Virus record (IMG/VR): IMGVR_UViG_3300042391_000877
Span: 1 to 38,479 of that record
Direction: 5' to 3' (one strand)
Length of the DNA: 38,479 nucleotides
Origin: a virus
Part shown: piece after piece, positions 12,359 to 29,195 of the stretch
How the letters are laid out: every line of letters begins with the position of its first letter
Position numbering within the stretch: the first letter of the stretch is position 1
Program-made: the position numbers and the translations under genes
Notes under the pieces: model-generated
Told to the model about the DNA's origin: nothing
The model's input: only the letters and a program-made list of their open reading frames with translations
The model's database searches: none

Positions 12359-13000
12359 ATGAATGAAAAAATACACAATCAATTAACAAGTAAAGGATAT
12401 TATACAACAACGATAAATCCTACTATAACTGAAAAACTAAAACAAATTTTTAGTAAAATAAAAGATATAGAGTTTAGAGATGCAACACATACATCTTGTG
12501 GTGAAACGGGATACACACATGATACCGATTTTGAAGTATTAGAGGAATTAAAAAAAGAATATGCACCATTAAAAAAATGGCAATTTTGGTATTCTAATCA
12601 TAATTTATATAAATTTTTAGATAGAAATGAGGTAGAATTTATTAAAGATGAAGTTTTTAGAAGTTTAATACAAGAATGTTATCCTGCTGATTTATACGAT
12701 TTAGAAAATTGTAATTTATCTTATACTATGTATAATAAACAATGTTATATAAATCAACACCAAGATGGTATTAGTAAAAATAAAATATGTAATATTTTAC
12801 TTTATTTAAATGAAGATTATAAGGATGGATATGGTGGTGAATTAGTTATAAATGGTAATGTTGTAGTAAAACCAGAGTTTGGTACATTGACAGTATTAGA
12901 TTTTACAACCGCAAATCCAAAACACGAAGTAACCGAAGTGTTAGATGATAACTTTAAGCGATTTGCTATTTTAACTTCATTTATATATAATAATAAATAA
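12359..13000 (+). CDS. 2OG-Fe(II) dioxygenase (prolyl-4-hydroxylase-like)
   Basis: This 213-residue enzyme is of the 2-oxoglutarate/Fe(II) oxygenase superfamily, which hydroxylates or otherwise oxidises proteins, sugars, nucleobases or small molecules. The metal triad is H134-x-D136 (NQHQDG) and H189 (PKHEV), with R201 (KRFA), 12 residues on, as the 2OG-binding basic residue. Between them is the family-typical ILLYLNEDY...GGELVI...LDF strand pattern. The N-terminal 100 residues are unassigned. It is most similar within the window to the oxygenase at 37418-38074 (same KRFA/ERKA end, same PEFG-x-LxxLDFT block). It lies directly upstream of the large tail fibre gene, so fibre hydroxylation is a possibility; the substrate is unknown. 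Confidence 0.85.
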   Translation: MNEKIHNQLTSKGYYTTTINPTITEKLKQIFSKIKDIEFRDATHTSCGETGYTHDTDFEVLEELKKEYAPLKKWQFWYSNHNLYKFLDRNEVEFIKDEVFRSLIQECYPADLYDLENCNLSYTMYNKQCYINQHQDGISKNKICNILLYLNEDYKDGYGGELVINGNVVVKPEFGTLTVLDFTTANPKHEVTEVLDDNFKRFAILTSFIYNNK

Positions 13001-13031: not shown

Positions 13032-16000
13032 ATGGCCGTTGATATAAAAGTTGCACCCGATGAGAAACTAGAATTAGTACAAACGTACATTACAGATACT
13101 AATTCAAATTCAGATTATTTTAATATAAGTGAACTACCTGAGACATTTTCGGGTGGTAAAAACGCGTTTCTATTAGCAGGTTCTGATAAATTAGTAGCTA
13201 ATACTGAAATTAAAATTCAAATAAAAGATGCAGAAGGTAATTTATGTTATATAGAATACTCAAATGGTTCACCTGAATATTATGAAGGAAACTCTAAGGT
13301 AGTAGCTGTTTATGTATATCCAAACGTAACCGCCTTTGGACCGGCAACAATTACAATATTAGGTCAATTAAAAGATGTTCCACAAGAATGGAATGGATTA
13401 TATAGTGTTAAATGGACTAAGCAGATTAATATAAATCCGGCATTAGCTAACACTACAAGAGTAAGATTTTATAAAAGACCACAAGTTTCTATTACAGAAA
13501 TAGTAGAACCATTATACACAATCGTAAGTGGTAGTAAAACACCATCATTAATTCAAGGTTCATTTGCATCAATTAAAGTAAATCAATTAGAAACATTTGC
13601 GGGAGATGTAAAACGAATAAAAGTATATAGAACTGCACAAGGTGATATATCTGATTATGATTTAATACAAGATATATTAGTAGAATCAAAAAATCTTTTA
13701 ACTACATATGAATTAAGTGGAAGTGTGGTTGGTGATGGTGGATTATTTACAAACGATTCTCTTTCTAAATTATGGTTAACTGGTTCATTGTATGGAGCAT
13801 TAAATTCTACATATATCAATGATGGGTTACAATTAACAGGTAGTGGTGCACTTACTTATTCATCATCACTAAATTTACTTAGTTCAAATACATATGAATT
13901 ACAATTAGATAGTTTCTTTACTGGTTCTACTGCAAATAAATTAGGAATATATGTAAGTTATCCTACACAATCTACATTAGGACAACCGTATACATCAACT
14001 ACACCAATTGCAATATTAAATGGTATAACACCAACTAAAAATTTTGGAACACAAACATTTCCATTTAATGTACCATTTGATTATCCAACGGCAAGTTTAT
14101 ACCTATCACAATCATCTGGAACAACACAATGGCACATTGGTAATGTAAGTTTAAATGTTTCACAAGATACTGCATTTTCTCCAAATGAAATAAGTTTTGT
14201 TACATCAATGCCAACAGTATTGACAAATGAAACATTCAATTTTAAGTTTGAATTTTATGATGTAAACAATAACTATGTACCTGTTGCAGTAACACATAGT
14301 GCCGTTTTTGTTGGTGGTACAAACTTTAACACATTACAATCCGGTTCACTATATGCATCTGCATCAGTATCGGCATCACTAGCGGCATTATCACAATCAG
14401 TTAGTGGTACAATTTCATTAACATCGCAATCGGTTAGCAGTAGTATATCAGCTACAAGTGCATCTTTAAGTAGTAGTATTTCCAAATCAGCAAGTGACAC
14501 TAGTGCATCATCTGCAAACTTTATTATATTAGTAAGTGGTTCATTAAGTAGTTCTATTAATGTAGTGAGTGGGAGTGTATATGTATTAAGTGCATCGGTA
14601 AGTAGTTCACTTGGAAATTTAAGTAGTTCAATATTTAACGCATCATCAACTTCAAAATTTGAAGTTTATTCTGCATCTGCATTTTTAGATAAATTTATTT
14701 ATACGGATGAAACTGGAAAAATTAATACCCCACCAACCGCAAGTGGAAATGGATTATATTTAGGTTCTACTTATTTGGGATATTATTCACAATCGGCTTG
14801 GCGAACTTATATGGATGACCAGGGTGATTTTGCATTAGCAGGTGCAAATCCAAATGCAGGATTTTTAGCATGGAGTTCTAAATTACAGAGATTACAAGTT
14901 CAAGGTGATATTAATATACAAGGTGGAAACGCAGCAACAACCTCATCGGTAACAACAGCGGTAAATTCTGCAACTTCATCATTATCACAATCATTAGCAC
15001 CAAATATATTTACATCAACAAGTGGTTTAATAAATAGACCACCAACAGTTTTAGTTGGTTCTACGGCAGGATTATATTTAGGTTCATCTTATTTGGGATA
15101 TTATAATGGTACTGATTGGAAAACCTACATGGCTAACAATGGTAATTTTTATTTAAGTGGTACTGGTACTAATGCATTAAGTTGGGATGGTACTACTTTA
15201 ACTATAAGTGGCGTTATTAATGTAACAGGTGGAAATGCAGCAACTGATGCAAATGCATTATTATATTCACAGAGAGCGGTAACATCCGGTTCTAATGCAG
15301 CAGCTACTGCACAATCAAACGCAATTTCAACCGCATCTGATGATGCTACATCAAAGGCAAACGCAGCTTACAACAACTCAACCGCCCAATTACAGATTTT
15401 AGCAAATGGTGGATATAGTGGTTCATTTATTGGTAGTACAACGATTTATTCACCAAACATAGGTGGACAAAACGGATATATTTCAAACATATTTAAAGTA
15501 GGTCAAAATGGTATTACATTAGATGGTACAAATAAAAAAATTTATATAGGTACTGGTACTTTTAATAATGCCAATACTGCATTTTATGTAGATAATAGTA
15601 GTAATTTTTCATTAGGAAATAAATTAACTTGGGATGGTACTACATTAACAATTGATGGTGCAGCTAACATAGGTGGTTCAACTGCAACCGTAGTAGCCAA
15701 TGGAGCAGCTGCGGGTGCATTGGCACTCCAATCAGGAGCAAACATTAGTTTACTAAATAACAATTCCGGATTTCAAGATGCATCAAGTGTAAACAATGCA
15801 GCAAAAACTGCAGGTAGTGTTGGTGGGTGGACAATTAATTCTACAAATTTAACATCCAATAATAACCGAACAATTTTATATAATACTGGATATATTGAAT
15901 TAAAAGATTCAGCCGGTCAAAATAAAATAACAATAGATTCGAGTGCAACATTACCTGACCCAACCGCAGGTAGTGATAGTGGAAACATTGTAGTACCGGC

Positions 16001-17180
16001 ACAAGCTGCACAAACAGTATATGTAAGTGGTGGAACGGTATCGGGTGGCACTTCACCATTGGTTGGGCCAGATGCAAATGGGAATTACGGAATTGGATGG
16101 TCACAACAAGTTTGGTTTACACCAACTATTACAGGATACTATGAATTTACAACTTGGTTTCCAAAAAATGATGGAATGGGTGCAACTGGAACGAGTGGTA
16201 CTGCAATAATGGGATTAAGAGCATACATCTATGATGCGGCTGGTAATTCATTAATAAACGAAGAGGGTAAAGAATATATAGAAGGACCTGTTGAAGGTGC
16301 GGCGGTGGGTGCAACTCAGTCTGGATTCGCAGCGGGAACATATGGTAACCAATATAATAGAGATGGAACAGGTGCATATTTCTCTAACCAATTATTAACC
16401 GCAGGTGTTGCAGTTAGATTTTTAATACAATGGATAGTTTTTAATATACGAAATACCGATGATTTAACAATAAAAGCATATTGGCCGGCAACAAATGTGC
16501 AATATATTTCCAATGTGCCTAAAACAAATATAAACCAACAAGGATTTCAGGTTGTACAAGATACAAATAGATACTTAACAATCAGGCCATCAGGTTGGTA
16601 TATGTATAATGACCCGGCAGTATATGGTAGTTCACCTCCTGCAAATTTGGGTGACCAGGGAATTACGGAAGTTACCGGTATAATGGGTGGTACTTTGGTT
16701 GTATTAAATGCAACTGATAAAAATGATTGGCATAGTTCTAAACAAAAACAATATATCCGAAGTGCACAATTTTCATTTTCAAATAGAGCAGCGGGTGGTA
16801 ATTTTATTAGTTCATTTTTCTATGGTGGATATGCACGTTCATTTAATTTAACAAGAGCATATGGGTGGTTTCAACCAAACACAAACACCGGATTTACTGA
16901 TTTTGGTGGTTCTTGGTGGCCTTACGCTTATAATATAGAAAGTGTAACTAGAATTAGTTATGGTAAATTTCAGGTAACATTTGCAGAAGCAATAATGGAT
17001 TCATATGGTGCCTATTACGGTGGTGGTATATATAGTGTATTTATAGGAAGTAGAGATATGGATGGGCCGACACAATTCCAACAGGCGGGACTAAGTAACG
17101 TATATCATACCGGATTTATTATTGATTTGGGTAATGAAACTTTAGATAATAGATTTATTTCAATATTAGTAATCGCTTAA
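13032..17180 (+). CDS. Large serine-rich tail fibre / receptor-binding protein with internal repeats
   Basis: A 1382-residue fibre-like protein. Residues 1 to about 180 form a compact N-terminal part, probably the tail-attachment end. About 437-553 is extremely Ser/Ala-rich with regular hydrophobic spacing (SASVSASLAALSQSVSG, SSSISATSASLSSSIS), suggesting a trimeric coiled or stalk region. Two related blocks follow at about 565-640 and 670-735 (GLYLGSTYLGYY..W.TYM and GLYLGSSYLGYY..W.TYM, each leading to a GGNAAT end), and a partial third at about 835-885 (TWDGTTLTIDG). Residues about 1000-1382 are aromatic- and Gly-rich, likely the distal receptor-binding part. It is followed by two small genes, one chaperone-like, as expected for a fibre locus. 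Assignment rests on size, repeats, composition and neighbours; no peptidase motif was seen. Confidence 0.75.
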   Translation: MAVDIKVAPDEKLELVQTYITDTNSNSDYFNISELPETFSGGKNAFLLAGSDKLVANTEIKIQIKDAEGNLCYIEYSNGSPEYYEGNSKVVAVYVYPNVTAFGPATITILGQLKDVPQEWNGLYSVKWTKQININPALANTTRVRFYKRPQVSITEIVEPLYTIVSGSKTPSLIQGSFASIKVNQLETFAGDVKRIKVYRTAQGDISDYDLIQDILVESKNLLTTYELSGSVVGDGGLFTNDSLSKLWLTGSLYGALNSTYINDGLQLTGSGALTYSSSLNLLSSNTYELQLDSFFTGSTANKLGIYVSYPTQSTLGQPYTSTTPIAILNGITPTKNFGTQTFPFNVPFDYPTASLYLSQSSGTTQWHIGNVSLNVSQDTAFSPNEISFVTSMPTVLTNETFNFKFEFYDVNNNYVPVAVTHSAVFVGGTNFNTLQSGSLYASASVSASLAALSQSVSGTISLTSQSVSSSISATSASLSSSISKSASDTSASSANFIILVSGSLSSSINVVSGSVYVLSASVSSSLGNLSSSIFNASSTSKFEVYSASAFLDKFIYTDETGKINTPPTASGNGLYLGSTYLGYYSQSAWRTYMDDQGDFALAGANPNAGFLAWSSKLQRLQVQGDINIQGGNAATTSSVTTAVNSATSSLSQSLAPNIFTSTSGLINRPPTVLVGSTAGLYLGSSYLGYYNGTDWKTYMANNGNFYLSGTGTNALSWDGTTLTISGVINVTGGNAATDANALLYSQRAVTSGSNAAATAQSNAISTASDDATSKANAAYNNSTAQLQILANGGYSGSFIGSTTIYSPNIGGQNGYISNIFKVGQNGITLDGTNKKIYIGTGTFNNANTAFYVDNSSNFSLGNKLTWDGTTLTIDGAANIGGSTATVVANGAAAGALALQSGANISLLNNNSGFQDASSVNNAAKTAGSVGGWTINSTNLTSNNNRTILYNTGYIELKDSAGQNKITIDSSATLPDPTAGSDSGNIVVPAQAAQTVYVSGGTVSGGTSPLVGPDANGNYGIGWSQQVWFTPTITGYYEFTTWFPKNDGMGATGTSGTAIMGLRAYIYDAAGNSLINEEGKEYIEGPVEGAAVGATQSGFAAGTYGNQYNRDGTGAYFSNQLLTAGVAVRFLIQWIVFNIRNTDDLTIKAYWPATNVQYISNVPKTNINQQGFQVVQDTNRYLTIRPSGWYMYNDPAVYGSSPPANLGDQGITEVTGIMGGTLVVLNATDKNDWHSSKQKQYIRSAQFSFSNRAAGGNFISSFFYGGYARSFNLTRAYGWFQPNTNTGFTDFGGSWWPYAYNIESVTRISYGKFQVTFAEAIMDSYGAYYGGGIYSVFIGSRDMDGPTQFQQAGLSNVYHTGFIIDLGNETLDNRFISILVIA
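14750..15240 (+). repeat. Tandem in-gene repeats in tail fibre
   Basis: Two related units begin near 14750 and 15068. Each encodes GLYLG-S-(T/S)-YLGYY followed by W-(R/K)-TYM, a WSS/WDG strand and GGNAAT. DNA identity is high in short blocks (for example TTATTTGGGATATTAT in both). A partial third copy near 15620-15680 keeps only the WDGTTLTI portion. Probably repeated beta-units of the fibre shaft that arose by duplication. Confidence 0.7.
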
Positions 17181-17752: not shown

Positions 17753-18766
17753 ATGTTTGATTTATTAGTTACGACTGGAGCAGGTAATGTTCCTATGGGT
17801 GGTAGTGATATATGGGTAAACAATTTTTTAGAAAATGTAGTTCCATATTTAAATTATCCAATTGTATTATTAATTGATGGTAGAAAACCCAATGGATTTA
17901 ATCCTGATTCAATTCCGTGTCAATTTGCATTTTCAAAAGAAACACCACTATTAATACCACCACTTTTAAGAAATTGTAGAAGAATACATTTTTTACACAA
18001 CAACTATTATCGTAGAGATGAATTGTGGGAATACAAACATAAATTCCATACAATATTTTGTCACGCTTATATCAAAGAAATTATAAACACCAATATAGAT
18101 TTAGGATTAGACAGAGTTTATTTACCCACTACAATGGATTTACAATGGGAACAGGATGTATTAGAAAAATGTAAACAAATAGTTTGGATTGGTTGTAACG
18201 ATGGATTAGTACAAAAAGATTTTAAAAAGAAAACAATTCAGATACCAAATTATTATGAGTTTAATCAAAATATAGAATATAAATGGAATACGGATAAGAT
18301 AGGATATGCAGCTCGTAGTGAGACAAGAAAGTGTTTTCATTTCTTAGATAAACACAAAGGATATGCTATTACCGATTGGATGGGATATGAAAATTTAAAA
18401 GAAGGATTAAACTTAAATTTAAAAAAAGTAAGATTCTACCCATATAATTTGGAAAACCACAGAAATTTCTTTAACTTAGACTTTACGATATTTCACGGAT
18501 GTTATGTAAATGAACCATTTGGGTATTCTATATTTAACGCAATTGATTATGGTAAACTTCCAATTCTAAATAAGTTTTGGTTACCTAAAATAGATTACAA
18601 ATATAGAGCAAATACAAAAGAGGAATTTAATAAGATGTATGAAATAATGTGTAATGATTTTGAATTAGAAAGACAATATAACTTTTTTAAATTAAAAGAA
18701 GCATTGCAACAATATAGTAGTAAAGAGGAATGGGTATATGAAATCACAAATATTTTAAATAAATGA
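17753..18766 (+). CDS. GT-B fold glycosyltransferase (GT4-like)
   Basis: A 337-residue protein with a two-domain GT-B look. The N-terminal nucleotide-sugar-independent half starts MFDLLVTTGAGNVPMGGSD, with the GGS loop at about residues 16-18 typical of GT4-type enzymes. The C-terminal half carries EPFGYSIFNAIDYGKLPIL, matching the EGFG...EA..-G.P donor-site block, except that the second Glu position is Asn (FNA). It would transfer a sugar from a nucleotide donor in the cytoplasm. It is the first gene of the long glycan-modification run and overlaps the next gene by 4 nt (ATGA), implying translational coupling. Sugar and acceptor are unknown. Confidence 0.7.
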   Translation: MFDLLVTTGAGNVPMGGSDIWVNNFLENVVPYLNYPIVLLIDGRKPNGFNPDSIPCQFAFSKETPLLIPPLLRNCRRIHFLHNNYYRRDELWEYKHKFHTIFCHAYIKEIINTNIDLGLDRVYLPTTMDLQWEQDVLEKCKQIVWIGCNDGLVQKDFKKKTIQIPNYYEFNQNIEYKWNTDKIGYAARSETRKCFHFLDKHKGYAITDWMGYENLKEGLNLNLKKVRFYPYNLENHRNFFNLDFTIFHGCYVNEPFGYSIFNAIDYGKLPILNKFWLPKIDYKYRANTKEEFNKMYEIMCNDFELERQYNFFKLKEALQQYSSKEEWVYEITNILNK

Positions 18767-19551
18767 AACACATAATAGTAGCGGGGGATTCATTTAGTTA
18801 TTATACAAATGAACTAAAAAAAATTAAAACACCAGAACAAATTATTAATATTGATAATGGTAATTGGTTTCATTTTTTAGAAGATGAATATAGAGAAAAT
18901 AATATAGAATATAAATTTTATTATTTAGGAAGACCATCTGCAGGAAATCATTATATAATAGACAGAACAAAAAATAAAATTGAAGAATTATTAGAAAAAG
19001 GAATTGATGCAGATTCAATATATTGTGGAATTCAATTTACTTATTTTTTTAGAAATATTTTATCAATGGATAAAACTAAAATGATAACAAAAGAATTACA
19101 AAATGATTATTTTGATTTAACCAATCGAATTCCAAATAAAGTAGAATATATTAAAAAAACATTGAATCATATAAACAATTTAGCAGATTTTATAAAAGAA
19201 AAAAAAATACAATTTCACTTCTTTTTTCAACAGGATATATTTAAACATTTTGGATTAAAAGAAATAAATTTTGAATCAGAAATAAATAAAATAAAACAAT
19301 ATTTTTTAACTAATAATGATTCTAAATTAGATGGAATGTTAGAAAACTATCTAAACAAAGATTTAGATAATTTATATTCGGCATATGTCTCAAAATACGA
19401 TTTACATTTTAATTCAATTGTATATTATCATTGGTATATTGATAAAATAAAACCAATATTAATGCCAAATACATTTTATAAAATAAACGAAAATACGTTA
19501 CAAAATGTACATTTATATCATAAAAATAAATTATTAAATGATAACAAATAA
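18763..19551 (+). CDS. Possible SGNH-hydrolase-like protein
   Basis: This 262-residue protein begins MKHIIVAGDSFSYY, which resembles block I (GDS) of SGNH hydrolases, a family that includes sugar O-acetyl esterases and acetyltransferase-like domains. A GNHY at about residue 64 could mimic the family Asn region. The C-terminal D-x-x-H block is not obvious (only NVHLYH near the end), so activity is uncertain. Many Phe/Tyr/Ile residues are present but no clear membrane helix. It overlaps the GT gene before (4 nt) and the methyltransferase gene after (14 nt), so it belongs to the same operon. An esterase or sugar-modifying role is only suggested. Confidence 0.45.
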   Translation: MKHIIVAGDSFSYYTNELKKIKTPEQIINIDNGNWFHFLEDEYRENNIEYKFYYLGRPSAGNHYIIDRTKNKIEELLEKGIDADSIYCGIQFTYFFRNILSMDKTKMITKELQNDYFDLTNRIPNKVEYIKKTLNHINNLADFIKEKKIQFHFFFQQDIFKHFGLKEINFESEINKIKQYFLTNNDSKLDGMLENYLNKDLDNLYSAYVSKYDLHFNSIVYYHWYIDKIKPILMPNTFYKINENTLQNVHLYHKNKLLNDNK

Positions 19552-20293
19552 AGATTACATAAAAGAATTTATTTCTAATAATCAAGAAATAGATGAGTAT
19601 GGAGACCAGGTGTTAATTAATGTTCCATATCGTTGGTCTCATGGTGCAACCGATGACCACTTAGGGGATGGGTTAATTATATATTCCCTAATTCAATATA
19701 TGAGAGCAAAAATATGTGTATGTTTAGGTAGTGGTGGTGGATTTATACCTAGAATTATGACACAGGCTAAAATGGATTTGCATTCTCAAAATATATTTGA
19801 AGGTAATAATGATAAAAGTTGGGGTGATATTGGTACTACATATATTGTAGATGCAGCAAATGGTATTGGTGGTAATGTAAATTGGTTAAAAGAAGAATCA
19901 TTTTTTAGAAGATTATTTTCACCAAGAATTATAAATGATACAACTGCAAATGCATTTCATAATTTTTTTGTACTAAATGATATTAAGATTGATTATTTGC
20001 ATATTGATGCAGGGCATAGTTATGAAAATGTAAAAGAAGATTTTGAATTATATTCTCAATTAATGAGTGAGAATGGTATTATATCAATTCACGATACTGA
20101 CCCTAATTACGCAGATAAATACATAGTGACAAATGAGGTTAAAGATAGAGGTGATTTTGATGATTGGAAAGGACCGATACAATTAGCAAAAGAAATAGAT
20201 ACCGATAAATGGCAAGTGTTTGATTTATTTAACTTTGGTATTCAAAAAAACAAACCGGCATCAACGGGATTAACATTAGTAAGAAAAAAATAA
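19538..20293 (+). CDS. SAM-dependent class I methyltransferase
   Basis: This 251-residue protein has a glycine-rich SAM-binding start VCLGSGGGFIPRIM (from about residue 60), a downstream YLHIDAGHSYENVKEDFELY block (about 152-171) and GIISIHDTD (about 180-188). These are typical of the Methyltransf_24/cephalosporin hydroxylase-like group, often found in glycan and natural-product clusters, where they O-methylate sugars. The start overlaps the previous gene by 14 nt, and the stop overlaps the next start (TAATG). Sugar methylation within the cassette is the likely role; the substrate is not indicated by sequence. Confidence 0.75.
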   Translation: MITNKDYIKEFISNNQEIDEYGDQVLINVPYRWSHGATDDHLGDGLIIYSLIQYMRAKICVCLGSGGGFIPRIMTQAKMDLHSQNIFEGNNDKSWGDIGTTYIVDAANGIGGNVNWLKEESFFRRLFSPRIINDTTANAFHNFFVLNDIKIDYLHIDAGHSYENVKEDFELYSQLMSENGIISIHDTDPNYADKYIVTNEVKDRGDFDDWKGPIQLAKEIDTDKWQVFDLFNFGIQKNKPASTGLTLVRKK

Positions 20294-21132
20294 TGAAAAG
20301 ATTAGTTACAGTCACAGGTAGTAGAACATCAACATTAAAACATATGCTAAATCACTATAAAGATTTAGTAGATGAAATGTATGTGGTGGTATATGAATGG
20401 GAAGGAAAAAGTTTATATGAATCAGTAAATGATATTGTTTCTCAATTTCCAACAGCAAAAATAATAAAAAGAGTTTATAAAGAAAAATTCAATTGGGAAT
20501 ATGTAACTAAATTGTATAATGAAATAAAAATGATGTATCCGGATGATTGGTGGATAGTATCGGATGATGATGAATTTCATGTCTATTCAAGAAATTTAAA
20601 TACAATTATAGAAGAATGTGAATCGAATGGGTGGGTAATGGTTAGAGGTGGATTTGTAGATAGAATTGGTAGAGATGGTGAATTTTCGGAACTAAAAGAA
20701 GATGTAAATATATTTGAACAATTTCCATTAGCAGGTTGTTTTCGTTATCCATTAAGTAACGCATGCCCAAATAAAATGTGTATAATGAAAGGTTGGGTAG
20801 AACTTACACCAGGACAACATTATGCAAAAATAGATGGACAAACAACTTGGAAATGGCAAGGTTGGAATCATCCACTAATTGCACCAACAAATGAATATAA
20901 TGTACAGGTTCATCATTTTAAATGGGATTCAACGTGTATAGAAAGAATTAAAGCAGTTGCAGATATTAACAAAGATTATGCTTATTCAAAAGAATATCAA
21001 ATAATGTACGATGCATTAAAACTAAATAATTTTAAAATTGATATTTATGATGAGAGATTTATGTTTGAAGATGTTGGTGTATTGGGTTATAGTTTATGGC
21101 GAATACTCTTCAAAATAATTCAGTCAGTTTAA
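20293..21132 (+). CDS. GT-A-like glycosyltransferase
   Basis: A 279-residue protein. The N-terminus (RLVTVTGSRTSTLKHML) and the acidic metal-binding motif WWIVSDDDEFH (DxD within residues about 92-102) indicate a GT-A fold. A C-terminal VHHFKWD at about 213-219 fits a family of bacterial and phage GT2/GT92-like transferases that end in a conserved HH-KW element. It is translationally coupled to the methyltransferase (1-nt overlap) and followed by a 35-nt gap, one of the few gaps in this run. Donor and acceptor are unknown. Confidence 0.65.
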   Translation: MKRLVTVTGSRTSTLKHMLNHYKDLVDEMYVVVYEWEGKSLYESVNDIVSQFPTAKIIKRVYKEKFNWEYVTKLYNEIKMMYPDDWWIVSDDDEFHVYSRNLNTIIEECESNGWVMVRGGFVDRIGRDGEFSELKEDVNIFEQFPLAGCFRYPLSNACPNKMCIMKGWVELTPGQHYAKIDGQTTWKWQGWNHPLIAPTNEYNVQVHHFKWDSTCIERIKAVADINKDYAYSKEYQIMYDALKLNNFKIDIYDERFMFEDVGVLGYSLWRILFKIIQSV

Positions 21133-21167: not shown

Positions 21168-22649
21168 ATGAGTAATCATAAATTAGCTATTGTAGTTCCA
21201 TATAGAGATAGGAGAGAACATCTCGATATTTTCTTGCCACACATACAATCGTTTTTAAAAGGTAAAGATATTGATTATAAAATATTTGTAATTGAACAAT
21301 CCGATAATAAACCTTTTAATTATGGTAAGTTATGTAATTCCGCATTTCATTTATTAAAAAATGAATATGATTATTTTTGTTTCCACGATGTAGATATGTT
21401 ACCTGCATCGGATAAAGCAGATTATTCTTACAAAGAACATCCTACCCATTTAGCAACGCGAGTACAAGTACATGAAAACACTTTACCTTATTTACAATAT
21501 TTGGGTGGTGTATTAATAATTTCAAAAGAAGATTTTGAAAAAGTTAATGGGTATTCTAATGAATATTATGGATGGGGATACGCAGATTTAGATTTATTAT
21601 TTAGAATGGATAATGCAGGAATTAAATTAGACTCAGAATATATTTACCCAAGAGTAGATACCGAATATGAAATAGATAGATTAAGAATTACGGATTCAAT
21701 TAAAAAAGAAAAAGTATCTTATTTAAAATTTGATGGCGAAACTCAAATGGAAATATTACCAAATAAATTTTTAAAAGGAATTACAACCGATTCATTTACA
21801 ATATCAGCTTGGATTAACTTTGATGATTTTGTTAAAGAAGAACAATATGTAGTTTCATTTCCTGGATTCAATAGTGGTATTTCAATTCAACCAGATAACA
21901 CATTAAGATTTAATTTTTGGGGAAAAGATAATAAGTATTACTTTAATTATAGAAAATTAAAACCAAATCAATGGCATCATATCATATGTAATATTGATTT
22001 TGATTCAAATAAATTACGAGTATTTGTAGATACATTTGAAGAAAATAAAAAAATAGATACATTAACACAATTTGAATTACCATTACGAGATTATACCAAC
22101 GATAAAATTTATATTGGATGTGGTTCACATGGTAAAAATATGTTTAGAGGTAAATTAGCAAATCTTTATATGTTTGATTATACATTAAGTGATTCGGAAA
22201 TCAAAAATTTGTATTTAAATGGATTGATTAATAATAAAAAATTACAAACACAATTTGAACCAATATTAAAATATCAATTTAATAATTTTTATAAAAACTT
22301 TGTAATGGATGGTAGTAAACATCACAACCACGCTACGTTGTATAACACACATGGCAGTAATTATTCAGAATATCTTTTAAAGGATGAAATAATAAAAACA
22401 TCTAAAATAAAACTACCAAAAAGAATTGAAGCAAATTTTCAATCACTACCACATGATAATGATACGGATATTGTTAATAGATTTAAATCATTTGATCCAG
22501 ATATTATTGAGAATGGATTGATATTTTTTAATGATATATTAACTAAAAAGTTTTCAACATCTAAGATAGGATTAAATAATTTAAAATTCAAATTGGTAAA
22601 AGAAGAAACCTTTGATAAAAATACAGAATGGTATAAAATAATTTTATGA
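21168..22649 (+). CDS. GT7-type galactosyltransferase-like protein with inserted LamG domain, catalytic motif altered
   Basis: 493 residues. Residues 1-145 follow the beta-4-galactosyltransferase (GT7) order: VPYRDR (10-15), FNYGKL (50-55), HDVDMLP with D74/D76, YLGGV (111-115), NGYSNEYYGWG (127-137). Residues about 184-390 form a LamG/concanavalin-like domain (YLKFDG, FTISAWINF, WHHIICNID, KIYIGCG, GKLANLYMFD). After it the GT7 C-terminus resumes: QSLPH429, equivalent to the metal-ligand His, and GLNNLKFKL (468-476). Where GT7 enzymes have GEDDD this protein has YADLD (138-142), so the conserved Glu and the next-but-one Asp are Ala and Leu. Acceptor binding or catalysis is probably altered. 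The next two genes but two (23275, 24684) are intact paralogs. Confidence 0.8.
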   Translation: MSNHKLAIVVPYRDRREHLDIFLPHIQSFLKGKDIDYKIFVIEQSDNKPFNYGKLCNSAFHLLKNEYDYFCFHDVDMLPASDKADYSYKEHPTHLATRVQVHENTLPYLQYLGGVLIISKEDFEKVNGYSNEYYGWGYADLDLLFRMDNAGIKLDSEYIYPRVDTEYEIDRLRITDSIKKEKVSYLKFDGETQMEILPNKFLKGITTDSFTISAWINFDDFVKEEQYVVSFPGFNSGISIQPDNTLRFNFWGKDNKYYFNYRKLKPNQWHHIICNIDFDSNKLRVFVDTFEENKKIDTLTQFELPLRDYTNDKIYIGCGSHGKNMFRGKLANLYMFDYTLSDSEIKNLYLNGLINNKKLQTQFEPILKYQFNNFYKNFVMDGSKHHNHATLYNTHGSNYSEYLLKDEIIKTSKIKLPKRIEANFQSLPHDNDTDIVNRFKSFDPDIIENGLIFFNDILTKKFSTSKIGLNNLKFKLVKEETFDKNTEWYKIIL

Positions 22650-23041
22650 TAAAACAATTATTAAACAACGAATTAGTTGTAAAACAATTAGAAAAAATTG
22701 CACAAGAATTAGAAGTAATGAAAGAAAGTAAAGGAGATTTTTCTTTTTTCTTACCTAAACTTATTATTAATATAGAAGCATTATTAAAAATGTATCATTT
22801 TAATGGTTCTAATACATTTGATTACGCAGTTAATTTTTTAGATACAAAAGACGAAAAAATTTCTTTACAACAAGAAAGAGAAAATGTTGGTAAAGGATTA
22901 GAACAATTATATACAAGACTAGGTGAAGTTGATGCAAGATTATTAGAAATAGAAACACATATAACAACTCCAGAATGGAAAGTGTGGAAAGAAGGACATG
23001 AAGCAATTGCATTTGAAACAGTAAAAAAATTCTTAAAATAA
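22646..23041 (+). CDS. Hypothetical helical protein between GT7-LamG genes
   Basis: A 131-residue protein, largely helical and charged, with heptad-like stretches (LVVKQLEKIAQELEVMKES near the N-terminus and LEQLYTRLGEVDARLLEIE near 88-106). It has no signal peptide, membrane helix or motif I recognise. It overlaps the first GT7-LamG gene by 4 nt (ATGA) and is followed 12 nt later by another small gene. Its placement between two GT7-LamG paralogs suggests an accessory or scaffold for those enzymes, but this is only positional. Confidence 0.55.
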   Translation: MIKQLLNNELVVKQLEKIAQELEVMKESKGDFSFFLPKLIINIEALLKMYHFNGSNTFDYAVNFLDTKDEKISLQQERENVGKGLEQLYTRLGEVDARLLEIETHITTPEWKVWKEGHEAIAFETVKKFLK

Positions 23042-23053
23042 AAACAAAATAAA

Positions 23054-23275
23054 ATGGCAGAAAAAAAAGAACTAACAACCGAAGAAAGAGGTGTAAAAGC
23101 ATTAGAAAGTATTGCACACTCAACACAAGACATTAGTGATTGGTTATACGATTTAGATACCAAAGGATGGTCTACAAGATTAGAATGGTATTTGAATGAG
23201 TTTTACAATATTGCTAAAACCAAAGCAGTTGGAACATCAACAAGACCCGATAAAGAGTCCGAAAGAGAAGCTTAA
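23054..23275 (+). CDS. Small hypothetical protein
   Basis: A 73-residue charged protein: an acidic/basic N-terminus (MAEKKELTTEERGVKALE), then an aromatic amphipathic stretch (ISDWLYDLDTKGWSTRLEWYLNEFYNI, about 27-53), and a polar tail. It is coupled to the second GT7-LamG gene by a TAATG overlap. A typical A-rich leader (AAAACAAAATAAA) precedes its ATG. The function is unknown. Confidence 0.5.
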   Translation: MAEKKELTTEERGVKALESIAHSTQDISDWLYDLDTKGWSTRLEWYLNEFYNIAKTKAVGTSTRPDKESEREA

Positions 23276-24687
23276 TGCAAAAATTAGCAATAATAGTTCC
23301 ATATAGAGATAGAACCTCTCATTTAGAAGTATTCGTTCCTTATATGCAAGAGTATTTAGAGGATTACGATTATAAAATCTTTGTCATAGAACAGAGTGAT
23401 GATAAGCCTTTTAATAGAGGTAAACTTTTAAACGTAGGAGCTAGGATTGCAATTAAAGAAGGGTTTGATTATTTTGCATTACATGATGTAGATATGTTAC
23501 CTTTAAAGGGAGTAGATTATTCTTATCCTGATACACCAATTCATTTAGTATCTAAAATTAATAAAGATATACCATTCATCGATTATTTTGGTGGAGTTAC
23601 TTTATTTAATGTACATGATTACAAATTAGTAAATGGATATTCTAATGAGTATTGGGGGTGGGGATTTGAAGATGATGATTTATTATATAGATGTATTCAG
23701 AGAAATATACCATTGGATAAAATTTCAGTTGGTATACCCGATAAAAACTATCTAATAAATTATTTTAAATTTGATGGTAAAACATCTTATATTAAAATAC
23801 CTTACAAAAATTTAGCATCTATTTTTAATGGTGATTTTACAATATCAATTAAAGTAAAACCAGAAGATAGTAAAACTTCATTAAAAGAGCAGTTTGATGA
23901 ATATCAGATTACTTCAATACCAGGTAGAAACACAGGTATATCATACACATCATTCAAACGATACAAAGGTGAGATTTGGACTAAAGATGATATTTCAACA
24001 TCTATTCAAAGTGATATCATTGGTGAAGTATGGTCACATTTAGTAATTACAAAAGAAGATGATATATTTTCTTTTTATATGAATGGTGAACTAATCGATA
24101 CCAAAGAATTAAAAGAACAAATATATGAATATGATAATGATTATTTTTATATTGGGGTAGGTAATCCAACATTAGATGCTAAACAATTTTATTTTAAAGG
24201 ATTAATTGCTGAGTTTGCTATTTGGAATATTGTATTAGAATTAGATAACATAAAAGAAGTATATGAAAATTCATTATACAAATCTATAATTAATGATTAT
24301 AGAAAATATGATAAATCAAAATACTTAAAATGTTATTATGATTTTAAAAATTTTAAAGGTGATATTATACAAGATTTAAGTGGCAATAAAAATAATGGAT
24401 TTATTTACAATTGTGAAGATAACATATTGGTAGATAAATTTGAAACAGAAATTATAGTTCCAATTAGACGAGAAGGAAAATTTAAAACATTAAAACATAG
24501 TTCAAATTCAACAATTGGGAATAATTGGGTACATTCAGAAACAAGAAAAAATCAAGAAAGATTTTACAACGAAATGAAAGGTAATATAGTAGATTTATCA
24601 ATAGATGGATTAAACACTTGCATATATAAAGAAATAGAAAGTAACAAACTTTCAGAAAAAGCAATAAAAATTTCAGTTAAACTATGA
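23275..24687 (+). CDS. GT7-type galactosyltransferase with inserted LamG domain, catalytic motif intact
   Basis: 470 residues. It follows eukaryotic beta-4-galactosyltransferase motif order closely: VPYRDR (8-13), FNRGKLLNVG (46-55), HDVDMLP with D71/D73, DYFGGV (103-108), NGYSNEYWGWG (120-130) and E132-D133-D134-D135. Residues about 160-390 are a LamG-type beta-sandwich (YFKFDGKTSYI, FTISIKV, WSHLVITK, FYIGVG, LIAEFAIWN, DLSGNKNNG). The GT7 fold then resumes with KTLKH408 (matching the metal-binding His of RMIRH in beta4GalT1, with Thr where that enzyme has Met) and D444-G-L-N (matching DGLNSL). It should transfer a sugar, possibly galactose or N-acetylgalactosamine, from UDP donor to a terminal sugar. 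The role of the LamG insertion, perhaps acceptor polysaccharide binding, is inferred. It overlaps both neighbours. Confidence 0.85.
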   Translation: MQKLAIIVPYRDRTSHLEVFVPYMQEYLEDYDYKIFVIEQSDDKPFNRGKLLNVGARIAIKEGFDYFALHDVDMLPLKGVDYSYPDTPIHLVSKINKDIPFIDYFGGVTLFNVHDYKLVNGYSNEYWGWGFEDDDLLYRCIQRNIPLDKISVGIPDKNYLINYFKFDGKTSYIKIPYKNLASIFNGDFTISIKVKPEDSKTSLKEQFDEYQITSIPGRNTGISYTSFKRYKGEIWTKDDISTSIQSDIIGEVWSHLVITKEDDIFSFYMNGELIDTKELKEQIYEYDNDYFYIGVGNPTLDAKQFYFKGLIAEFAIWNIVLELDNIKEVYENSLYKSIINDYRKYDKSKYLKCYYDFKNFKGDIIQDLSGNKNNGFIYNCEDNILVDKFETEIIVPIRREGKFKTLKHSSNSTIGNNWVHSETRKNQERFYNEMKGNIVDLSIDGLNTCIYKEIESNKLSEKAIKISVKL

Positions 24688-26126
24688 AGTTAGGAGTATG
24701 TGTACCATATAGAAATAGAGAAACTCATTTAAAAGAGTTTTCACCTAGAGTTCATAAATTCTTAGAAGAACAAGGTATTGAACATAAAATATATTTTGCG
24801 CATCAATGTGATGATAAGTTATTCAATAGAGGTAAGATGAAAAACATTGCAGCGAAACACGCATTTGATGATGGATGTGATTATATTGTATGGCATGATA
24901 TAGATATGGTACCAGAGGATAGTTCTTGTGATTATACGTTCAATCCTGAGAACCCTAAGCATTTAGCAGTAAGAATATCTCAAACAGATTATAACCTTAA
25001 ATATGAGGAGTATTTTGGTGGTGCAGTATTGTTTACAAAAGAACAAGTTGAAGCAACAAATGGTTACTCAAACGATTATTGGGATTGGGGTATGGAAGAT
25101 GATGACCTTTTTTGGAGATGTGTATTGACCGGTAATGCAGAACAACATTATTTACCGGATATAACCAACCAAAAGTATGGATATTTTGATGGATTAAAAT
25201 CATATGTTAAAATAGAACCATCTCGTTCAATTAGAAATTTATGCTCACGTTCACATACGGTTTCAATATTAGTAAGAGCACATCAACAAGAGGAGAAAGT
25301 TCCTATTTATTTAATTGGAGATGCAGATAGAAGATTTTGTGAATATCCAATCCTTCGCAGACCGGGACATGATTGGGGTATATCGTATAATAATAGTAGA
25401 GCATTTACTTCTATGTTATGGAATAATGAAAGAGAATTTTTATACCTATGGGCAAAGAGATACGAACAACAATGGAGTTGGGTAACATTGACAGTTGATG
25501 ATGATAATAAATTAATTTCACTTCACATCAATGGTAAAAAAAGTGATGCAAGATTTGGAACAGGTGCAACATCACCATTAGAATATAGTGGATATTTAAA
25601 AAGATATGGAACAGAACCATACTATATTGGAACAACACCATCGGTAGGAGTAGATGAGGTTAATAGATGGTTTAAAGGTGATATTGCAAAAGTTATGATG
25701 TGGGATAGATGTTTATCAGAAAATGAAATAATGGAATTTCCGAATGATATGGTGGCACATTATGATTTTAATTCAATAAATGGAAATGTATTAAACGATT
25801 TAAGTGATAACGGAAATCATGGCGAAATAAATGATGTTGAAATAAAAGAAGAAAATACTTTGAAAGTTAATAATACTATCTTACCTTTCCGTAGAGATGG
25901 TAAGTTTGAATGTTTACCACACCAAACCGAAGGTCTAATAACAGTTGGTGGTGTAGATAAATGGGCAAAGGGTGAAACAACTGCAAGAAATGAAAGAAGA
26001 TATATATTAGAAATGCAACAAGGTAAGTATAATTGGAAAAACGATGGTATGAATAGTTTAGAATACGAACTCATATCAGTAGATGAAATAGGTAATAATT
26101 CTGTAATAATAAATTGTAAAGCATAA
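24684..26126 (+). CDS. GT7-type galactosyltransferase with inserted LamG domain (third paralog)
   Basis: 480 residues with the same composite architecture. GT7 N-part: VPYRNR, FNRGKMKNI, HDIDMVP with D72/D74, EYFGG, NGYSNDYWDWG and E138-D139-D140-D141; the first Gly of WGWG is Asp here. The LamG part spans about residues 165-395 (YFDGLKSYVKI, VSILVRAH, WSWVTLTVDD, YYIGTT, DIAKVMMWDR, DLSDNGNHG). The GT7 C-part has ECLPH413, Cys in place of the Met ligand, then D454-G-M-N-S-L, very close to the DGLNSL of vertebrate enzymes, and the strand end SVIINCKA. It overlaps the preceding gene (ATGA) and the following radical SAM gene (TAATG). It is probably an active transferase with an acceptor different from its sisters. 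Confidence 0.85.
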   Translation: MKLGVCVPYRNRETHLKEFSPRVHKFLEEQGIEHKIYFAHQCDDKLFNRGKMKNIAAKHAFDDGCDYIVWHDIDMVPEDSSCDYTFNPENPKHLAVRISQTDYNLKYEEYFGGAVLFTKEQVEATNGYSNDYWDWGMEDDDLFWRCVLTGNAEQHYLPDITNQKYGYFDGLKSYVKIEPSRSIRNLCSRSHTVSILVRAHQQEEKVPIYLIGDADRRFCEYPILRRPGHDWGISYNNSRAFTSMLWNNEREFLYLWAKRYEQQWSWVTLTVDDDNKLISLHINGKKSDARFGTGATSPLEYSGYLKRYGTEPYYIGTTPSVGVDEVNRWFKGDIAKVMMWDRCLSENEIMEFPNDMVAHYDFNSINGNVLNDLSDNGNHGEINDVEIKEENTLKVNNTILPFRRDGKFECLPHQTEGLITVGGVDKWAKGETTARNERRYILEMQQGKYNWKNDGMNSLEYELISVDEIGNNSVIINCKA

Positions 26127-27517
26127 TGGCTAGTTACGAAAAATTTGAAAGTGTAAGAGAACAATTAAATGCGGTAGGAGTAGGATTCTGTTTAGCAAAA
26201 TGGATGCAAGTAACAATGCATTTACATATTGGACATAATCATAGTTGTCACCATCCGATGACACATCAGGTATCAACAACTGAATTAAATAGAGACCCTT
26301 CCGCACTTCATAATACACGCTTCAAAAAACAAAAAAGAAGAGAAATGTTAGAAGGTGGGAAGCCGGCAGAATGTGATTATTGTTGGGGTGTAGAGGATAG
26401 TTCAAATCAATTTAGTGATAGAACATTTAAATCGTCTGAACCATGGGCATTTCCACATTTAGAAAAGATTAAACAAAGTAATTGGAGAGATAATATAAAT
26501 CCTTCGTATGTAGAAGTTTCATTCAGTAATGCTTGTAATTTTAAATGTTCATATTGTGCACCACCATTCTCAACAAAATGGATGGAAGAAATTGAACAAC
26601 ATGGTGGATACCCAACATCTGATAATTTTAATGGATTAGAACATTTTGTAAGTAGTGGTAGAATACCAATCCCACAAAGTGAATTTAATCCATATGTAGA
26701 AGCATTTTGGAAATGGTGGCCGGAGTTGTATCAAGATTTATATACATTTAGAATCACAGGTGGTGAACCTATGATGCATAAAGATACTATGAAAGTATTA
26801 GATTATATCATTGATTCTCCAAATCCAAATAAGAATTTATGTTTAAGTATCAATTCAAATTTAGGTGTACCCGATTCGTTATATAAAAAATTCAGAGAAA
26901 AATTTAAAATTATATCCGATCGAGGATTAGTTAAAGAATTAATTATTTACACAAGTTGTGATGGATATGGTACACAGGCTGAGTACGTTAGAAATGGTTT
27001 AGTATATAATCAATTGATGGATAGAATAGATGATTTATGCCAGTATATCCCAAGACTGACAGTAGATATAATGAGTACATACAACGCATTATCAGTACCA
27101 TCGTATCGTAAATTAATTGATGATGTATATTCACTAAAAGCAAAACACACAAACGCATTAAGATATTATAAACAACCATTATTATTAGATAGTTCATATT
27201 TAAGATATCCAAACCATCAATCTATTAGAATATTAGATAAAGAATGGTCGGACGAAATATTTAAACAAGCACAATTAGTTGAATTTTATGAATTATTAAG
27301 GGATGATGTAAATTGTTATGGGTTTAGTGATGTTGAAATCGTTAAGATTAGACGAATTTATGATTATTTTATATCAATCGATGATGAAGATAGAATGGCA
27401 CATAGAAAAGATTTTTATAAATTTTTTAGTGAGCATGATAAAAGAAGGGGAACTAATTTTGAAAAAACATTCCCTGAATTGGCTGATTTTTATAACAAAT
27501 GTAAAGAAATGAAATAA
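26126..27517 (+). CDS. Radical SAM / twitch-type protein (copy 1)
   Basis: 463 residues. The canonical radical SAM cluster motif is C137-NFK-C141-SY-C144, followed by the GGEP loop (RITGGEPMM, about 211-219) that contacts SAM. Upstream lie a conserved C41-H-H-P and a C83-DY-C86-W...ED element, both repeated in the copy at 29197. They may bind an additional metal or cluster, or be structural. Family members are known from bacteria and phages as twitch-domain radical SAM proteins of unknown substrate. Here it sits between GT7-LamG and LamG genes, all translationally coupled, so a role in modifying a sugar or a glycan-carrying peptide is plausible. Full-length and intact. Confidence 0.85.
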   Translation: MASYEKFESVREQLNAVGVGFCLAKWMQVTMHLHIGHNHSCHHPMTHQVSTTELNRDPSALHNTRFKKQKRREMLEGGKPAECDYCWGVEDSSNQFSDRTFKSSEPWAFPHLEKIKQSNWRDNINPSYVEVSFSNACNFKCSYCAPPFSTKWMEEIEQHGGYPTSDNFNGLEHFVSSGRIPIPQSEFNPYVEAFWKWWPELYQDLYTFRITGGEPMMHKDTMKVLDYIIDSPNPNKNLCLSINSNLGVPDSLYKKFREKFKIISDRGLVKELIIYTSCDGYGTQAEYVRNGLVYNQLMDRIDDLCQYIPRLTVDIMSTYNALSVPSYRKLIDDVYSLKAKHTNALRYYKQPLLLDSSYLRYPNHQSIRILDKEWSDEIFKQAQLVEFYELLRDDVNCYGFSDVEIVKIRRIYDYFISIDDEDRMAHRKDFYKFFSEHDKRRGTNFEKTFPELADFYNKCKEMK

Positions 27518-28227
27518 TGGAACTATTTGAATTTAAAGATACTTTTTGTTGCAGTGTATGGAACGAATCTAAACACAATACATCCAAACGACCTAATTTA
27601 TTGGGAACGGTGTTTAACGATTCTGTAATTATAAATTGTACATTTATTGCACAAAATAATGGAAAAAAACAATATATTTTTGCAAAACCTGGAATAGTAA
27701 ATAGTGGGGTTTATATTGATAATAATAAATTAAAATGTGTATTATTTACTGCAAATCCTGAAAGTGGTAATTTTTCGGATGATATGCATATTGAAGAATT
27801 TGATTTTGAATATGATAAAGAATATAAAGTTATTTATCAAATTCAAAATGTAGAAGGAATCAGTATGTTTTTGGTTTCAGTAAATGGTGAAAAACGAATG
27901 GTTAAATGTAAATATAAAACTTGCGATTATGCACATGTACCACTATGGATTGGTGTAATGAATCCATTTTTAAAAGATACTAATGAAAGATATTATTTTA
28001 ATGGTATAATATCTGAATTTATAGTTTCAAACAATGAAGGTATAGTTACTAATTTAGATTTTACAAAAGTAAATAGATTTAAAGTGTGGGATAAAAGTGG
28101 TAATGGTAATTTTGCATATATTGAAGAATTTATGAATAAAACAATTCAAATTAAATTAAATAAATTATTAGCAGGAAACTCATTAGAAACGGCAGATATT
28201 ACAAATATAAAACAAACTCTAATATAA
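27517..28227 (+). CDS. Stand-alone LamG-like domain protein
   Basis: This 236-residue protein consists almost entirely of one LamG/concanavalin-like beta-sandwich: SVIINCTFIAQ, KCVLFTANP, EYKVIYQIQN, PLWIGVMNP, YFNGIISEFIVSN and DKSGNGNFAYIEEF follow the same strand order as the LamG insert of the GT7 proteins. There is no signal peptide. The C-terminal 40 residues are polar and helical (KLNKLLAGNSLETADI). It is joined by TAATG overlaps to the radical SAM gene before and the epimerase gene after. It may bind the same glycan as the GT7-LamG enzymes. The domain assignment is by pattern and needs profile confirmation. Confidence 0.6.
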   Translation: MELFEFKDTFCCSVWNESKHNTSKRPNLLGTVFNDSVIINCTFIAQNNGKKQYIFAKPGIVNSGVYIDNNKLKCVLFTANPESGNFSDDMHIEEFDFEYDKEYKVIYQIQNVEGISMFLVSVNGEKRMVKCKYKTCDYAHVPLWIGVMNPFLKDTNERYYFNGIISEFIVSNNEGIVTNLDFTKVNRFKVWDKSGNGNFAYIEEFMNKTIQIKLNKLLAGNSLETADITNIKQTLI

Positions 28228-29195
28228 TGAAAATATTAATTACAGGTGGTGCAGGTTATTTAGGTTCAGTAATTACCGAAAAGATGTTAAACGCAGGACA
28301 TAGTGTTACTGTCATAGATAACTTATCATTCAATCAAATTTCTCCATTACAATTTACAACAAATAAAAAATATAATTTTATATATGGTGATGTTCGTAAT
28401 GAAAGATTATTAAGACATGAAGTAGGAATACATGATGTTATTATTCCATTAGCCGCAATTGTAGGTTTTCCTGCTTGTGCTAAAGACCCTAAGTTAGCAT
28501 GGGAAGTAAACTTTACTCAAATAGAAACTATATTAGATACAATTACTGATGAACAAATTATATTATATCCAAATACAAATAGTGGATATGGTATCGGTGA
28601 AGGACAAACAGAATGTACCGAAGAATCACCTTTAAAACCAATTTCAGTTTATGGTGAAAGTAAATGTGCAGCAGAAAAATTACTATTAGAATGTAGTTCA
28701 GCAATAATTTTTAGATTAGCAACTGTGTTTGGTACATCACCAAGAATGAGAACTGATTTATTAGTTAATGAATTTGTATACAAAGCAATGACAGATAAAT
28801 ACATAACCGTATTTGAAAAACATTTTAAGAGAAACTTTATTCATATTCAAGATGTGGCAAATGTATTCTTATGGGCATTAAATAATTATGATAAAATGAG
28901 ACATAATGTTTATAATGTTGGATTAAGTAACGCAAATTTAACTAAACAAGAATTATTAGAAACTATTCAAAAATATATTCCAGACTTTGCAATATCATAT
29001 AATGATTACTACGAAGACCCGGATAAAAGAGATTATATTGTATCTAATGCAAAAATAGAAGCAACCGGTTGGAAACCAAAATACACATTAGATGATGGTA
29101 TTATAGAATTAATGAAAACCTATCAGGTATTGATTCCTAGAATGGCATCTGAATTTAGAAATGGATTTCCGTTAGGATACGCACAAACATTTTAA
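28227..29195 (+). CDS. NAD(P)-dependent nucleotide-sugar epimerase/dehydratase (extended SDR)
   Basis: A 322-residue extended short-chain dehydrogenase. The Rossmann motif GGAGYLG is at 7-13, D31 (VIDN) selects NAD, and the active-site pair Y142-GES-K146 is intact, preceded by an N-T-N-S segment near 118 for the catalytic Ser/Thr. C-terminal elements RNFIHIQDVA (about 208-217) and YNVGL are those of UDP-glucose-4-epimerase/dTDP-sugar dehydratase relatives. The expected reaction is oxidation-reduction at C4 of an NDP-sugar with bound NAD. It is coupled to the LamG gene upstream, and only one base separates it from the second radical SAM gene. The exact sugar is not deducible. Confidence 0.85.
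   Translation: MKILITGGAGYLGSVITEKMLNAGHSVTVIDNLSFNQISPLQFTTNKKYNFIYGDVRNERLLRHEVGIHDVIIPLAAIVGFPACAKDPKLAWEVNFTQIETILDTITDEQIILYPNTNSGYGIGEGQTECTEESPLKPISVYGESKCAAEKLLLECSSAIIFRLATVFGTSPRMRTDLLVNEFVYKAMTDKYITVFEKHFKRNFIHIQDVANVFLWALNNYDKMRHNVYNVGLSNANLTKQELLETIQKYIPDFAISYNDYYEDPDKRDYIVSNAKIEATGWKPKYTLDDGIIELMKTYQVLIPRMASEFRNGFPLGYAQTF

Follow-up and report, generated by a model that had tools for sequence, protein, structure and literature searches.

Three GT7-type genes with an internal LamG domain

The window analysed here is the whole 38,479-nucleotide stretch of the uncultured virus record IMGVR_UViG_3300042391_000877 and is a fragment of a phage genome. It carries, on the plus strand, three paralogous genes related to GT7 (beta-4-galactosyltransferase-like), a very well studied glycosyltransferase family, and the GT7 domain of each product is interrupted by a LamG domain. 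We refer to the genes as A (positions 21168-22649, 493 amino acids (aa)), B (23275-24687, 470 aa), and C (24684-26126, 480 aa). Each is a complete open reading frame (ORF) whose product shows the same domain order, namely two GT7 Pfam domains, Laminin_G_3, and then about 80 residues past the LamG fold that are covered by no Pfam GT7 model.

All Pfam matches of A, B, and C lay over the family cut-offs, with E-values of 8e-25, 1.7e-21, and 1.1e-18 for PF13733, 8.1e-16, 1.1e-16, and 2.5e-19 for PF02709, and 1.1e-20, 5.4e-18, and 1.1e-10 for PF13385 (Laminin_G_3), respectively. In A, the N-terminal part of the GT7 domain covers residues 2-154 (21171-21629; PF13733 at 2-87 and PF02709 at 94-154), the LamG/pentraxin-fold insert covers residues ~181-414 (21708-22409; PF13385 at 203-346), and the resumed GT7 C-terminal part, with His429, covers residues ~415-493 (22410-22646). 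The corresponding parts of B are residues 2-150 (23278-23724; PF13733/PF02709, with a match to beta4GalT1 at E 3.3e-30), ~159-392 (23749-24450; PF13385 at 167-326), and ~393-470 (24451-24684). The last of these includes, at 24496-24498, the codon of His408, the predicted metal-ligand His after the insert. The N-terminal part of C spans residues 2-155 (24687-25148; PF13733/PF02709), Pfam places LamG at residues 172-349 (25197-25730) of a longer insert, and the C-terminal part with His413 and DGMNSL spans residues ~397-480 (25872-26123). By sequence, C matches beta4GalT1 at E 3.6e-30.

The GT7 motifs occur in GT7 order in all three proteins, as placed by an earlier reading of the DNA letters alone (hereafter the sequence-only reading), whose residue numbers are right. 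VPYRxR starts at residues 10, 8, and 7, FNxGK at 50, 46, and 47, and HDxDM at 73, 70, and 71 of A, B, and C, respectively; after the EDDD-type motif come His429, His408, and His413, followed by IGLN467, DGLN444, and DGMN454. The same reading had assigned a GWGxEDDD-type motif to all three proteins. The motif is canonical only in B, with GWGFEDDD; C has DWGMEDDD, and in the GWGYADLD of A both the Glu and the second Asp are replaced.

With B as query, 73 viral loci were collected (single loci carry L numbers below). A full-length filter of 396-534 aa was passed by 165 of 172 GT7 ORFs, the window's three included, and these were reduced to 101 representatives at 90% identity (23 A, 43 B, and 35 C). 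An alignment of 95 representatives (alignment A2), which omits a frame-cut C row and five A rows with divergent sequences, contained matches to both PF13733 and PF02709 in all members and to PF13385 in 89 (E ≤ 0.01). A family-alignment scan of bacterial and archaeal genomes gave 35 genome-contig loci, 26 of which encode insert-free GT7 proteins. The Arg after the EDDD motif and the subsequent His are separated by a median of 19 residues (range 19-25) in these 26 proteins, compared with 245-310 in the phage proteins (medians 282 in A, 268 in B, and 267 in C; 100 of 101 representatives, one lacking the region).

The C-terminal part resumes the GT7 domain

A profile was built only from the part after the EDDD motif of the 26 insert-free bacterial proteins and was run against the phage proteins and 527 decoys, namely further ORFs from the window and the viral loci. 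The window tails were matched with E-values of 9.3e-5 (A), 1.9e-11 (B), and 2.5e-9 (C). Across the representatives, the profile matched the last 110 residues at E < 0.01 in 90 of 101 (17/23 A, 43/43 B, and 30/35 C), and the other 11 (six A and five C) did not reach this threshold. The best true decoy had an E-value of 0.64; two 'decoys' scored better, but both proved to be pieces of GT7, one truncated by the contig end in L011 and the other, in L053, the detached end of a frame-cut gene. On this basis we reject the idea that the tail match arose by chance or through mis-annotation, and an assembly artefact was rejected because the layout is intact in all 165 full-length ORFs.

Structure models of A and B were predicted with AlphaFold2 from 59 sequences and 95 family members, respectively, and were aligned to known structures with VIA-align 2, the ranges giving the first and last aligned residue only. 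The mean predicted local distance difference test score was 94.2 for B and 93.9 for A, with predicted template modelling scores of 0.90 and 0.88. The B model aligned from residue 1 to 470 with beta4GalT1 (1tvy_A, 179-398) at Z 26.6 and a root-mean-square deviation (rmsd) of 2.1 over 210 residues with 34% identity. The A model gave Z 28.0 and rmsd 1.9 over 214 residues with 30% identity, the alignment reaching residue 493. In both models the C-terminal part is predicted to complete the GT7 fold, and the Pfam matches, the sequence match to beta4GalT1, and the tail profile suggest the same layout for C.

Since the tail is GT7 by profile and the models align with beta4GalT1 from end to end, it is confirmed that about 250 residues interrupt the catalytic domain shortly before the predicted His metal ligand. 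The central claim of the sequence-only reading, a LamG domain inside the GT7 catalytic fold of three paralogs, is thus borne out: profiles match both flanks in A, B, and C, the PF02709 and Laminin_G_3 searches it proposed were positive for all three, and in the two modelled proteins the residues after LamG align with the GT7 core to the last residue.

In the B model, the chain passes from a helix (132-142) into a long strand (148-167) that enters the insert; it returns through a second long strand (381-395), and a short one (402-405) comes before His408. The insert is thereby modelled between the EDDD helix and the strand preceding the metal-ligand His. As the split catalytic domain folds around it, the lectin-like domain appears as an outgrowth in the neighbourhood of the active site. 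The mobile lid of beta4GalT1 comes after this His, so the insert is expected to sit near the part of the site that moves. The folds most similar to the B insert were those of PAPP-A, pentraxins (Z 17-20), and the Bacteroides protein 4dqa (Z 17-23 overall). Among the best of them was 4dqa, a putative carbohydrate-binding protein, with Z 22.4 over residues 159-392; PAPP-A and the pentraxins covered much the same range. The A insert matched PAPP-A (8d8o_B, Z 21.1 over residues 181-414), 4dqa, and pentraxins at Z 17-21. Among the best 50 matches of a Foldseek search against viral models, many of them nameless, GT7 and LamG proteins appeared as separate entries and none was named as both.

Catalytic residues differ among paralog groups

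The catalytic residues are kept in the window's B and C and nearly throughout their groups. Both Asp of the DxD motif (D71 and D73) are present in 43/43 B and 35/35 C, as are W129, E132, and D133; the second D of WGxEDD is present in 40/43 B (three have Asn) and 35/35 C. The His after the insert occurs in 43/43 B and in 34/35 C; the one exception is a frame-cut protein that lacks the region. Group A has the first Asp of DxD in 19/23 and the second in 20/23, and the His in 16/23. Its WGxEDD motif is eroded, with the second D in 0/23, E in 13/23, W in 9/23, and the first D in 21/23. The window's A retains both Asp of DxD, the Trp, the first Asp, and the His. Because the WGxEDD motif is not kept intact, group A is regarded as a GT7 relative by fold and sequence rather than as an established GT7 enzyme, and it may lack ordinary GT7 activity, having lost acceptor-site residues. 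Six A rows that lack the His and have further Trp or DxD losses (L028, L030, L050, L054, L070, and L072), together with L051, in which Lys replaces the His, are perhaps dead or repurposed enzymes; the six may be pseudo-enzymes kept in the operon.

The Tyr that favours UDP-Gal (uridine diphosphate galactose) in beta4GalT1 is kept in 42/43 B, 35/35 C, and 19/23 A, and galactose is our guess for the donor sugar for this reason. No stretch at a crude transmembrane hydropathy threshold was present in any of the 101 representatives.

Divergence and origin of the insert

Mean pairwise identities within groups A, B, and C were 0.28, 0.31, and 0.41 for the insert and 0.54, 0.60, and 0.65 for the N-terminal part. 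An insert diverging faster than the N-terminal part is as would be expected of a specificity module. In a midpoint-rooted tree of the whole proteins of all 101 representatives, groups A, B, and C had support values of 98, 94, and 100. A second tree was built from LamG sequences only, taken from 63 of the 101 inserts, seven virion-type domains, and 12 free LamG ORFs. It, too, largely sorted the inserts into A, B, and C, a pattern consistent with a single insertion that preceded the duplications. The exceptions were one B row that strayed and some A rows that were unplaced, and the virion-type domains fell among the inserts on long unstarred branches. LamG motif order was counted in the inserts to look for circular permutation; of 101, 33 had the pattern on the C side and none on the N side, and 68 lacked it.

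Distribution of the family

Besides the window's three, 169 GT7 ORFs were found in the 73 viral loci, with three in 28 loci, two in 40, and one in five. These phage loci yielded no complete insert-free GT7: each of the five GT7 ORFs shorter than 390 aa runs off the locus end, and the short GT7 ORF of L049 corresponds to a split gene in the longer stretch L130. Across 15 related records, 39 of 41 PF02709 matches lay in frames of 455-546 aa; of the remaining two, one was the split gene of L130 and the other a weak match in a different type of ORF. Split C genes, each in two ORFs, occur in L053 (5404-6814) and L130, through either mutation or assembly error. To look for the family in isolated phages, 50,697 phage records were searched by tblastn, the only queries being B, at a threshold of E ≤ 1e-5, and C, at E ≤ 0.01; nothing was returned, and the insert-free L083 protein as query found no relative in viral contigs.

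By ORF length, the 35 bacterial and archaeal genome-contig loci comprised seven with an insert, 26 without, and two fragments. L077, L078, and L079 have a run of methyltransferase, GT2, B-type GT7, and C-type GT7 genes, and L080 has C-type GT7, radical SAM, epimerase, and RmlC genes; judging by these genes, at least L077-L080 look like phage contigs binned with bacteria. L081, L082, and L084, with an insert by ORF length, contain too little sequence to judge the neighbours.

The carriers themselves may be T4-like phages, judging by gene content. The large-terminase family phrog_2 was matched in 11 of 15 related records, but it also matched 11 of 14 control genomes. One of the matches in the related records, when checked, was a T4-type terminase (Terminase_6N, 2.2e-15), closest to those of Flavobacterium phage immuto (54.8%) and Microcystis phage Mel-JY01 (53.2%). 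In L116, a sheath gp18 domain scored 24.8 bits, below the cut-off of 27. Neither a T4-type large terminase nor a contractile-tail sheath was seen in the window, itself a fragment.

Gene neighbourhood

The genes around A, B, and C lie on the same strand. Upstream of the island, a 1382-aa repetitive protein, fibre-like by appearance and without a Pfam or PHROG match, is encoded at 13032-17180, and similar ORFs occur in related records. It is followed at 17753-18766 by a 337-aa protein (u337) to which no function was assigned; it has no Pfam or PHROG match, and most of the 14 longer stretches on which gene order was judged encode a homolog. Next come a Methyltransf_24-type methyltransferase at 19538-20293 (Pfam 1.6e-10) and a GT2-like glycosyltransferase at 20293-21132. 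The latter scored 18.5 bits with PF13704, below the cut-off of 27.5, and its homolog in L115 scored 29.1 bits, above it. Downstream of C, a twitch-domain radical SAM protein is encoded at 26126-27517 (NF033640, 4.1e-97), adjoined at 27517-28227 by a free-standing LamG-like protein of 236 aa (insert profile E 1e-5, no Pfam match) and then at 28227-29195 by an NAD-dependent sugar epimerase/dehydratase (PF01370, 1.3e-35). The nucleotide-sugar genes of the window comprise two epimerases, an RmlC-like enzyme, and a thiamine pyrophosphate (TPP)-type enzyme.

Homologs of the methyltransferase, the GT2-like protein, and either of the window's two radical SAM genes were found in 55, 64, and 66 of the 73 loci, respectively, and free-standing ORFs matching the insert profile in 28, counts that depend on the reach of each locus. 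The usual order in the 14 longer stretches is fibre-like gene, u337, methyltransferase, GT2, A, B, C, radical SAM, often a free LamG gene, and epimerase, although several records lack A or have extra genes in between. A fibre-like ORF, resembling the 1382-aa protein or having an S74-like motif, lies upstream in 11 of the 14. The neighbourhood suggests that the three genes belong to an island of glycan genes located behind a fibre-like gene, a setting absent from the sequence-only reading.

Some loci showed further features. In L115 (5419-13438), six LamG-type ORFs lie between the S74 gene and the island, with a glycosyltransferase-like ORF among them (Anp1, 4.8e-8), and in L125 six ORFs within one 19-kb stretch match the two radical SAM proteins of the window. 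The window also encodes, at 9200-12346, a 1048-aa fused SbcCD with an SbcD-like part (2-300) and an SbcC-like part (352-1047). Three 2-oxoglutarate (2OG)-Fe(II) oxygenase genes are located at 12359-13000, upstream of the island, and at 36698-37417 and 37418-38074, downstream of it.

Proposed function

We propose, with a probability of about 0.55, that these proteins work in a phage glycan pathway in which the insert of the split GT7 binds the acceptor and B and C transfer a hexose from a UDP-sugar. A pentraxin/LamG-type domain would have entered GT7, probably once, before the duplications. The insert would bind a glycan chain or a protein, for example the upstream fibre-like protein, and hold it at the active site, where B and C would add the hexose, probably galactose. 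A, which has diverged at the acceptor subsite, may use another acceptor or assist B and C. Together with the GT2-like, methyltransferase, radical SAM, and nucleotide-sugar enzymes of the island, they would build a phage-specified glycan, and because the island sits behind a fibre-like gene, we lean slightly to the virion over the host surface as its target. The computations establish the insertion, the fold, the conservation of catalytic residues, and the gene neighbourhood, and acceptor recognition through the insert is plausible. A further-reaching version, a phage-specific class of lectin-gated glycosyltransferases in which the insert senses the chain and couples binding to lid closure, an A/B/C relay glycosylates the fibre, and fibre and glycan together set the host range, seems improbable to us at present.

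Several observations weigh against this proposal. Group A lacks the second Asp in 23/23 and the His in 7/23, and some members of the family may for that reason have no activity. The GT7 C-terminal part is itself variable, with mean pairwise identities of 0.37, 0.39, and 0.50 within A, B, and C, and fast change of the insert therefore need not mean specificity. LamG and pentraxin folds, moreover, often bind proteins or metal ions or oligomerise. As for the fibre, no fibre-like ORF was seen upstream in three of the 14 longer records, one of which is cut close to the island, and the label is one of resemblance except in L115, where Pfam identifies Peptidase_S74 (2.3e-17).

If the target were instead the host surface, the enzymes would alter an O-antigen or capsule glycan, for instance against re-adsorption or rival phages, with the insert binding host polysaccharide. 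We hold this to be the next most probable account, though a tentative one. The two epimerases and the RmlC-like and TPP-type enzymes of the window would suit it, whereas the lack of membrane-like segments in all 101 representatives (by crude hydropathy) speaks against it, many cytosolic glycosyltransferases of host-surface glycan pathways also being without such a segment. It is further opposed by the collinear position of the genes behind a fibre-like gene, where expression would be late. A comparable gene region of pelagimyophages has been read, in the published text, as modifying the O-chain of the host (PMC7029224). The insert could also be a docking or oligomerising module that joins A, B, and C, perhaps with the free LamG protein, rather than an acceptor-binding lectin. 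Co-encoding of the three proteins, the free-standing insert-profile ORFs in the window and in 28 of 73 loci, and the presence of pentraxins, which are ring-forming oligomers, among the best fold matches of the B insert (Z 17-20) all fit this idea. However, the inserts vary more than the core, and 45 of the 73 loci yielded no free LamG ORF, although some of the 45 do not extend far enough to reveal one; we consider docking rather doubtful, a little more so than a role at the host surface.

Two other accounts fare worse than the acceptor-binding proposal. Glycosylation of a modified base of phage DNA would match the three 2OG-Fe(II) oxygenase genes of the window and a job for which phage glycosyltransferases are known (PMC12619734). 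Yet no base-modification gene was recognised among the scanned window proteins, the genes keep company with fibre-like and nucleotide-sugar genes, and three lectin-bearing paralogs would be hard to explain for an acceptor as small as a base, which makes this account very unlikely. The least credible is an arrangement without any insertion, in which a GT7 N-terminal domain is followed by LamG and then by an unrelated tail. In its favour, single-sequence searches with B and C aligned only the N-terminal part significantly, and when PDB chains were searched with the family profile, its tail aligned in the right order to the end of beta4GalT1 but at a weak i-Evalue of 6.5. Against this stand the insert-free tail profile (1.9e-11, 2.5e-9, and 9.3e-5 compared with at least 0.64 for true decoys) and structural alignments that reach the last residue of the A and B models, leaving it next to no probability.

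Comparison with known systems

Animal beta4GalT1 (1tvy, 2ae7, and 6fwt) shares its fold with the A and B models and, with B and C, the motif order, including DxD, EDDD, the His, and the DGLN region. Unlike the phage proteins, it has no LamG insert, and the animal enzymes are Golgi membrane proteins, whereas the phage proteins have no membrane stretch. They also differ at the position mapped to the Met metal ligand of beta4GalT1, which is Cys in 32/35 C, Ser in 15/23 A, and mixed in B. B aligns about equally well to beta-1,4-galactosyltransferase 7 (4irq and 3lw6; 4irq_A Z 26.5 over 204 residues), where the insert is likewise absent. Relatives are also found among the insert-free bacterial GT7 proteins, whose tails match the phage tails at a much shorter Arg-His spacing and which have Asn at the His position in 9 of 26. 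One of them, the 221-aa L083 protein from Parachlamydiaceae, is 53% identical to residues 1-149 of B and aligns over nearly its whole length to beta4GalT1 (E 1.3e-42). PAPP-A, pentraxins, and 4dqa share the fold of the insert, but in the phage proteins that fold sits inside another domain.

Among phages, the closest parallel is the host-recognition cluster of pelagimyophages, in which tail fibres, glycosyltransferases, and radical SAM cassettes are described within one variable region (PMC7029224). In that article, GT8 is named as the commonest glycosyltransferase family, in contrast to the GT7 of the island described here; the terms 'lectin', 'laminin', and 'galactosyl' do not occur in its main text, where concanavalin A domains are given for structural proteins. 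Virion glycosylation has been reported for mycobacteriophages (as cited in PMC12619734). In a literature search that covered few subscription journals, we found no published description of a GT7 enzyme or galactosyltransferase with a LamG or lectin domain, or of a phage GT7, and PHROG and NCBIfam scans listed no model spanning both GT7 and LamG.

In animals, the acceptor choice of beta4GalT1 is changed by alpha-lactalbumin, a separate protein; in the family described here, present in dozens of uncultured phage contigs, the catalytic domain itself contains a lectin-like domain. The phage proteins offer a clean system for asking how an embedded domain changes acceptor choice, with the insert-free bacterial relatives as ready controls, and they point to glycans made by phages from genes that accompany a fibre-like gene. 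Every part of these proteins is already known, and the embedding of LamG within GT7 is new.

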